From Alteromonadaceae bacterium (GTDB lineage: Bacteria; Pseudomonadota; Gammaproteobacteria; Enterobacterales; Alteromonadaceae): a stretch of 35,421 nt of DNA. Numbering within the stretch: the first letter of the stretch is position 1; each line of letters begins with the position of its first letter. Positions 9,917 through 11,014 of the stretch are shown piece after piece. The notes beneath the pieces are model-generated. The model did not search any database. It had not been told where the DNA came from and saw nothing but the letters and a program-made list of their open reading frames with translations. The stretch is from NCBI GenBank assembly GCA_015491935.1, contig WGGB01000177.1, positions 1 through 35,421 on the forward strand. The letters run 5' to 3'. Both the position numbers and the translations under genes were made by a program.

Positions 9917-11014
9917 ATGAGTGTTGTTCAACTTAATATTGTTAATTTTAGAAATTTGACCAATACCAGTATTAATTTTCACCCTAATTTAAATATAATA
10001 TTAGGCGAAAATGGTAGTGGTAAAAGTAGTATTTTAGAAGCAATATTTTTTTTAGCTCATGGAAAATCATTTAGAACAACTAAAGTTGAAAATATAGTTT
10101 GCCACGAACAACAAAAATTAATTGTTAATATTAAAGATCAAGCTGAAAATAGTTTAGGTATAAGTCGAGATTTATTAACTAATACTTTAGTTCTCAAGTT
10201 GAATAAGCATAGAATAGTTAAACTTTCAGATTTGGCAAAAAATATTGCTGTACAGATAGTAACACCAGAAAGTTTTAAACTTTTTTTTGGTGGTCCAAAA
10301 GAAAGACGACGTTTTATAGATTTAGGATTGTTTCACGTGAAACATGATTTTTCAAATAAATGGAGTCACTTTAATAAAATACATAAACAAAGAAATGCGT
10401 GTTTAAGAAACAAAGTTAGTCAGCAAGAGTTGGCCTACTGGACAAATGAGTTTTGTAATTATTCAGAGCTTATTGCAAATGATAGAGAGTGTTATGTTAA
10501 CCAGCTTAAATTAGAGCTAACGAAATGGTTAACTATTTTATTACCTCAATTGACAGAAAAAATAGAAATACATTATTCAAAAGGGTGGTCGTCTAAAAAA
10601 AAATTATTTGATGTTTTAATTGAAAATAATGAACGAGAAAGATTAAAAGGATATTGTAGTGCAGGCGCACATAAGTTTGATGTAAAATTTACACTACATA
10701 AGCAACCGTTAGAATTAGTTATTTCGAGGGGGCAACAAAAGTTGTTTTTACTGGCATTAACTTTCGCTCAAGCGAAATTAATAGAAAAAGTTAAGCAAGT
10801 AAAACCAATTTTATTAATTGATGATATAGGTGCAGAACTAGATGTTAATTCTCGCAGTGCATTAGCAAAAGCCTTAGAATTATTATCATGTCAGAGTATT
10901 GTTAGCGCAATAAATAAAGTGGATTTAGCTCCTTTAATTGCACAATCGGAGTTAGGAAATAAAGATAATTATAAAATGTTTCACGTGAAACATGGTGAAA
11001 TTTCAATAGAGTGA
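9917..11014 (+). CDS. recF: DNA repair ATPase RecF
   Basis: SMC/ABC-like ATPase of the RecFOR pathway; loads RecA at single-strand gaps. Of 365 residues, Walker A is GENGSGKSS (30-38), the signature is ISRGQQKL (269-276), and Walker [12 protein letters not shown] lies around 300. Length matches the family (E. coli 357). The gene also serves as a DNA-level scaffold: the pentapeptide FHVKH occurs twice (139-143 and 355-359), and each time the underlying DNA is a perfect 16-bp parS palindrome. It lies between dnaN and gyrB with gaps of 14 and 16 bases. It is A/T-rich, with several single-base runs, but the frame is open throughout. Confidence 0.97.
10329..10344. other. parS: parS chromosome-partitioning site 1
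   Basis: TGTTTCACGTGAAACA is a perfect 16-bp palindrome identical to the chromosomal parS consensus bound by ParB. It lies inside recF over codons 138-143 (LFHVKH). Confidence 0.92.
10977..10992. other. parS: parS chromosome-partitioning site 2
   Basis: Second perfect copy of TGTTTCACGTGAAACA, 648 bp downstream of the first, over recF codons 354-359 (MFHVKH) near the 3' end. Two exact copies within one gene, about 9 kb from oriC, fit an origin-proximal ParB loading region. Confidence 0.92.

Follow-up and report, generated by a model that had tools for sequence, protein, structure and literature searches.

Two probable parS centromere sites of the chromosome inside recF, near the replication origin of an Alteromonadaceae bacterium

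Two copies of a 16-bp palindrome lying inside the recF gene of an Alteromonadaceae bacterium are very probably chromosomal parS centromere sites, which the single chromosomal ParB of this organism would read. The whole stretch of DNA that was analysed (35,421 nucleotides) is here called the window, and the features on which the argument depends are the following:

1..1265, minus strand: 5' part of mnmG; the gene runs on into contig C261, where it is followed by rsmG, parA and parB
1266..1662, strandless: probable oriC, flanked by mnmG and mioC (flavodoxin)
7400..8770, plus strand: dnaA, open reading frame named by sequence and gene order, without a family-library scan
8799..9902, plus strand: dnaN, open reading frame named by sequence and gene order
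9917..11014, plus strand: recF, 365 aa, host of both sites (TIGR00611 equivalog, E 6.8e-96)
10329..10344, strandless: predicted parS site 1, TGTTTCACGTGAAACA, a perfect palindrome; encodes (L)FHVKH at RecF residues 138-143
10977..10992, strandless: predicted parS site 2, again TGTTTCACGTGAAACA, a perfect palindrome; encodes (M)FHVKH close to the RecF C-terminus (residues 354-359)
11031..13490, plus strand: gyrB, open reading frame named by sequence and gene order

Both sites match exactly the 16-bp chromosomal parS palindrome TGTTYCACGTGRAACA, are spaced by 648 bp and each encode FHVKH in the recF frame. An earlier sequence-only reading had placed TGTTTCACGTGAAACA at these two positions, without a third copy in the window and with both copies read as FHVKH, and these claims were confirmed on the coordinates and on the 365-aa RecF; the next best match within the window has three mismatches, and three matches with up to three mismatches are seen there against a mean of 0.18 in shuffled sequences. 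The genome-wide search proposed in that reading gave no exact copies scattered outside recF: the two recF copies are the only ones in the draft genome (3,200,327 bases in 296 contigs), which is 91.6% complete, so that further parS sites could be missing from this count. Three places elsewhere in the genome with two mismatches (on contigs C46, C176 and C214) were considered as parS and judged to be due to chance, their number being near the expectation estimated for an unbiased composition (about 0.8); the one inspected, on C176, is located inside an unrelated coding frame.

The sites belong to the origin domain, being located in the dnaA-dnaN-recF-gyrB cluster about 9 kb (8.7-9.4 kb) from the probable oriC. 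The position of oriC at 1266-1662, between mnmG and mioC, is considered probable on the basis of three DnaA-box-like sites (at 1536, 1609 and 1642) and of a GC skew that turns positive rightwards starting at this region. Beside the probable origin, between mioC and mnmE, a DUF4760 gene (Pfam PF15956, E 5e-22) is found at 2315-2965.

The genome contains one strong ParB match (TIGR00180, E 1.2e-58), encoded on contig C261 in the gene order mnmG-rsmG-parA-parB-atp genes. The end of this contig overlaps positions 1-569 of the window by 569 bases with 95.6% identity, and all 25 differences fall on wobble positions of mnmG, their coordinates being multiples of three; the two contigs therefore meet in mnmG, and they probably represent two sister strains mixed in one draft assembly, as the pattern of differences suggests. 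When the contigs are joined through the overlap, parA is about 11.6 kb from site 1, a linkage that rests on the overlap and on synteny; in a complete relative of the same family (G072) parAB and recF are about 12 kb apart, with parAB on that side too. The earlier reading had expected parAB just beyond mnmG and had named its absence from the genome as an argument against parS; in fact, parA and parB of the chromosomal type adjoin rsmG/mnmG in the same genome, on the contig that overlaps the left end of the window.

The ParB protein comprises the ParB_N, HTH_ParB and ParB_C domains (N-terminal, HTH and C-terminal dimer, respectively), and its closest solved structure is Caulobacter ParB (6t1f). 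Residues R104, G170, K171, S172, R173, N178, G201 and R204 are kept, among them those described as reading parS (PMC7383237), while Q162 is replaced by H; in particular, R173 and G201 are the residues separating parS readers from Noc (PMC7383237), and the protein carries both. The nucleoid occlusion system Noc-NBS shares with the present one a ParB-fold protein and a 16-bp palindrome, but the NBS sequence differs from parS, and the ParB described here has R173/G201 instead of Q173/R201 and scores below the Noc cut-off; an identity with Noc-NBS was rejected since neither the NBS sequence nor a protein of the Q173/R201 type is found.

The 16-bp palindrome, the location of parA/parB by the origin and the parS-reading residues of ParB are features of the chromosomal ParABS (Soj/Spo0J) systems. 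The closest likeness is to Pseudomonas aeruginosa PAO1, in which parS1 and parS2 are located in recF (PMC5521831, PMC3909081, PMC4368675) and the closest parS sites are described as being "in the recF gene" (PMC3909081); the twin parS arrangement in recF beside oriC is thus of the Pseudomonas type, the likeness being at the level of the gene. As in PAO1, parAB lies across the origin from the sites, by the gid (mnmG-rsmG) genes. In contrast, P. aeruginosa also has the high-affinity sites parS3 and parS4, and ten putative sites in total, whereas the two recF sites are the only exact ones found here; the parS1-4 cluster of P. aeruginosa has been mutated, with silent recoding of sites, and studied, and one site of the cluster suffices for segregation (PMC4368675). 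A different arrangement is known in V. cholerae, in which some 65 kb separate oriC from the three native parS1 sites (PMC4091711), unlike the present sites inside the dnaA-dnaN-recF-gyrB cluster.

The order was sampled with 99 genomes, in 93 of which recF was found, and 94 recF copies were aligned (75 ParB-positive and 19 ParB-negative). Site 1 is exact in 25 and site 2 in 53 of the 75 ParB-positive copies, with at most one mismatch for site 2 in 68 of them; both sites are exact in 22, while an exact parS is absent from all 19 ParB-negative copies. In one genome, which resembles that of an enterobacterium (G080), the strong ParB match is on a second contig and was counted as plasmid-borne; once this genome is placed among the ParB-less ones, 68/74 ParB-positive recFs carry a site versus 2/20 ParB-negative ones and, by family, 16 of the 18 with ParB versus none of the 8 without it (Fisher p 2.9e-5), p-values that serve as guides because the families are not fully independent. 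The exceptions are G017 and four members of family f3, five ParB-positive genomes without a recognisable recF site at either position; in another ParB-positive genome (G005) only a decayed recF site is found. Exact twin sites are present in Colwellia, Thalassotalea, Pseudidiomarina, Halomonas, Vreelandella, Onishia, Methylophaga and Thiopseudomonas, and their occurrence at the same recF positions across these genera of Gammaproteobacteria indicates that the arrangement is old in the class. The recF sites are lost in Enterobacter, Citrobacter and Gilliamella, and Enterobacteriaceae are described as devoid of chromosomal par genes (PMC3909081). In four complete or near-complete relatives (G072, G055, G053 and G073) a search tolerating one mismatch still returns nothing but the two recF sites.

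Other forms of the site were observed in some relatives. A third exact parS occurs inside recF, between the usual two, in one genome (G075; L031:2123-2138), and a one-mismatch site, TGTTTCATGTGAAACA, is located 7-14 kb beyond parB in three relatives of the same family (L183:1690, L184:1543 and L185:1473), within the glmS frame in one and outside long frames in the other two; this site was not found in the draft genome of the window. In most recF genes of Vibrionaceae and Shewanellaceae (L115-L181, from Vibrio, Photobacterium and Shewanella) site 2 reads TGTT[C/T]CATGTGGAACA, which is one synonymous base (CAC to CAT) off parS, the forms to compare being TGTTTCATGTGGAACA and, for this variant, TGTTTCACGTGGAACA. 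Val GTG and Glu GAA are still over-conserved at the variant site of Vibrionaceae, which may be either a site still working weakly or a relic on which some constraint persists.

The repeated peptide raises the question of the level at which selection acts, since FHVKH could be a motif of the RecF protein, selected as such, with the palindrome as a by-product of codon use. A part of the peptide does appear to be RecF's own, FxV near the C-terminus and FH at site 1 being present in many ParB-less RecFs. The codons, however, are fixed far beyond codon usage: in the AT-rich genome of the window CAT accounts for 83% of His and GTG for 11% of Val codons, and from this usage the chance of FHVKH being spelled TTT CAC GTG AAA CA- is 1.6% per site and about 2.4e-4 for both. 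For each recF column, the frequency with which same-residue pairs of genomes from different families share a codon was compared with that predicted from the codon use of the genomes themselves. Of the 351 columns in ParB-positive genomes, V357, V141, codon 354 (preceding F355) and K/E358 show the four largest excesses, and H356 and H143 are likewise among the first eight; in a set of 22 named genomes, almost all of them with two exact sites, the parS codons occupy ranks 1-5, 7 and 8 of 336. None of the parS codons is conspicuous in ParB-negative genomes, where most of these columns hold too few shared residues for the test. A class-wide search inside recF, open to every synonymous spelling, revealed that FHV[K/E]HG is written with parS codons in 70/71 cases and with other codons in one of the 71, and the alternation of K and E proceeds in step with two spellings of the parS half-site. 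Moreover, in ParB-less families the FHVxH peptide is lost together with the parS sites: RecF ends there in MFTVEKG, MFRVEQG or IFHIKSG, the His and the charged residue vanishing while the rest of the protein stays. The codon conservation and the loss of both sites and peptide without ParB point to a constraint on DNA and not on protein, and selection for the protein motif is accordingly regarded as very unlikely. The sequence-only reading had attributed the repeat to DNA-level constraint and had suggested comparing synonymous conservation of recF across relatives; this attribution is borne out, the parS codons leading the ranking and exceeding the remaining recF codons in conservation by a wide margin where ParB is present. 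The likeness it noted between the C-terminal copy and a common RecF ending is real, but the causal direction is reversed, the FHV[K/E]H ending being common because parS sits there.

A constraint on DNA could also derive from another DNA-binding protein, for instance a regulator of recF/gyrB with a preference for CACGTG. Sites within an operon could in principle be operators and nothing more specific favours this explanation, whose probability is rated slightly lower still: the match to the 16-bp chromosomal parS consensus is exact, the presence of the sites tracks that of ParB across families and the recF of P. aeruginosa also holds parS1/parS2. Chance, finally, has a negligible probability and is already refuted, since exact copies expected per genome are well under 0.01, yet two stand at that 648-bp spacing, and the 16-mer recurs at homologous recF positions in many genera.

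For the two palindromes as parS, established work on ParABS suggests by analogy the following course: ParB would bind both recF sites, load as a CTP-dependent clamp and slide or spread over the dnaA-dnaN-recF-gyrB region, and a ParA gradient would pull apart the origin-proximal ParB complexes after replication. Selection on DNA would fix both amino acids and codons at the two sites, RecF tolerating either FHVKH or FHVEH. In the lineage of the window the recF sites are probably the whole high-affinity centromere, or the main part of it. A broader proposal, towards which the balance tips slightly, is that the complete high-affinity centromere of Colwellia-type lineages, and of several others among the Gammaproteobacteria, resides inside recF as an ancestral twin site; the C-terminal FHVxH of RecF would then be a fossil of centromere selection, lost with ParABS and changed at a single base (CAC to CAT) in Vibrionaceae/Shewanellaceae as the working sites moved elsewhere.

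The arrangement is not new in kind, twin parS sites in recF having already been described in Pseudomonas; what the sequence comparison adds is that the recF sites are ancient and widespread and that they make up the whole exact parS complement of several genomes, of the Colwellia type and others. No statement of a centromere confined to recF was found in the literature search, which leaves aside the 2007 survey by Livny et al., reportedly the main survey of parS sites. The finding is a warning that the conservation of a peptide may stem from what the DNA does and not from the protein, and deletions or allele swaps of recF in such bacteria may remove the centromere, while silent recoding of the two sites would be a simple test of how many parS a chromosome needs. 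One sequence would here perform two jobs, the protein sequence of a repair gene being partly dictated by the centromere.
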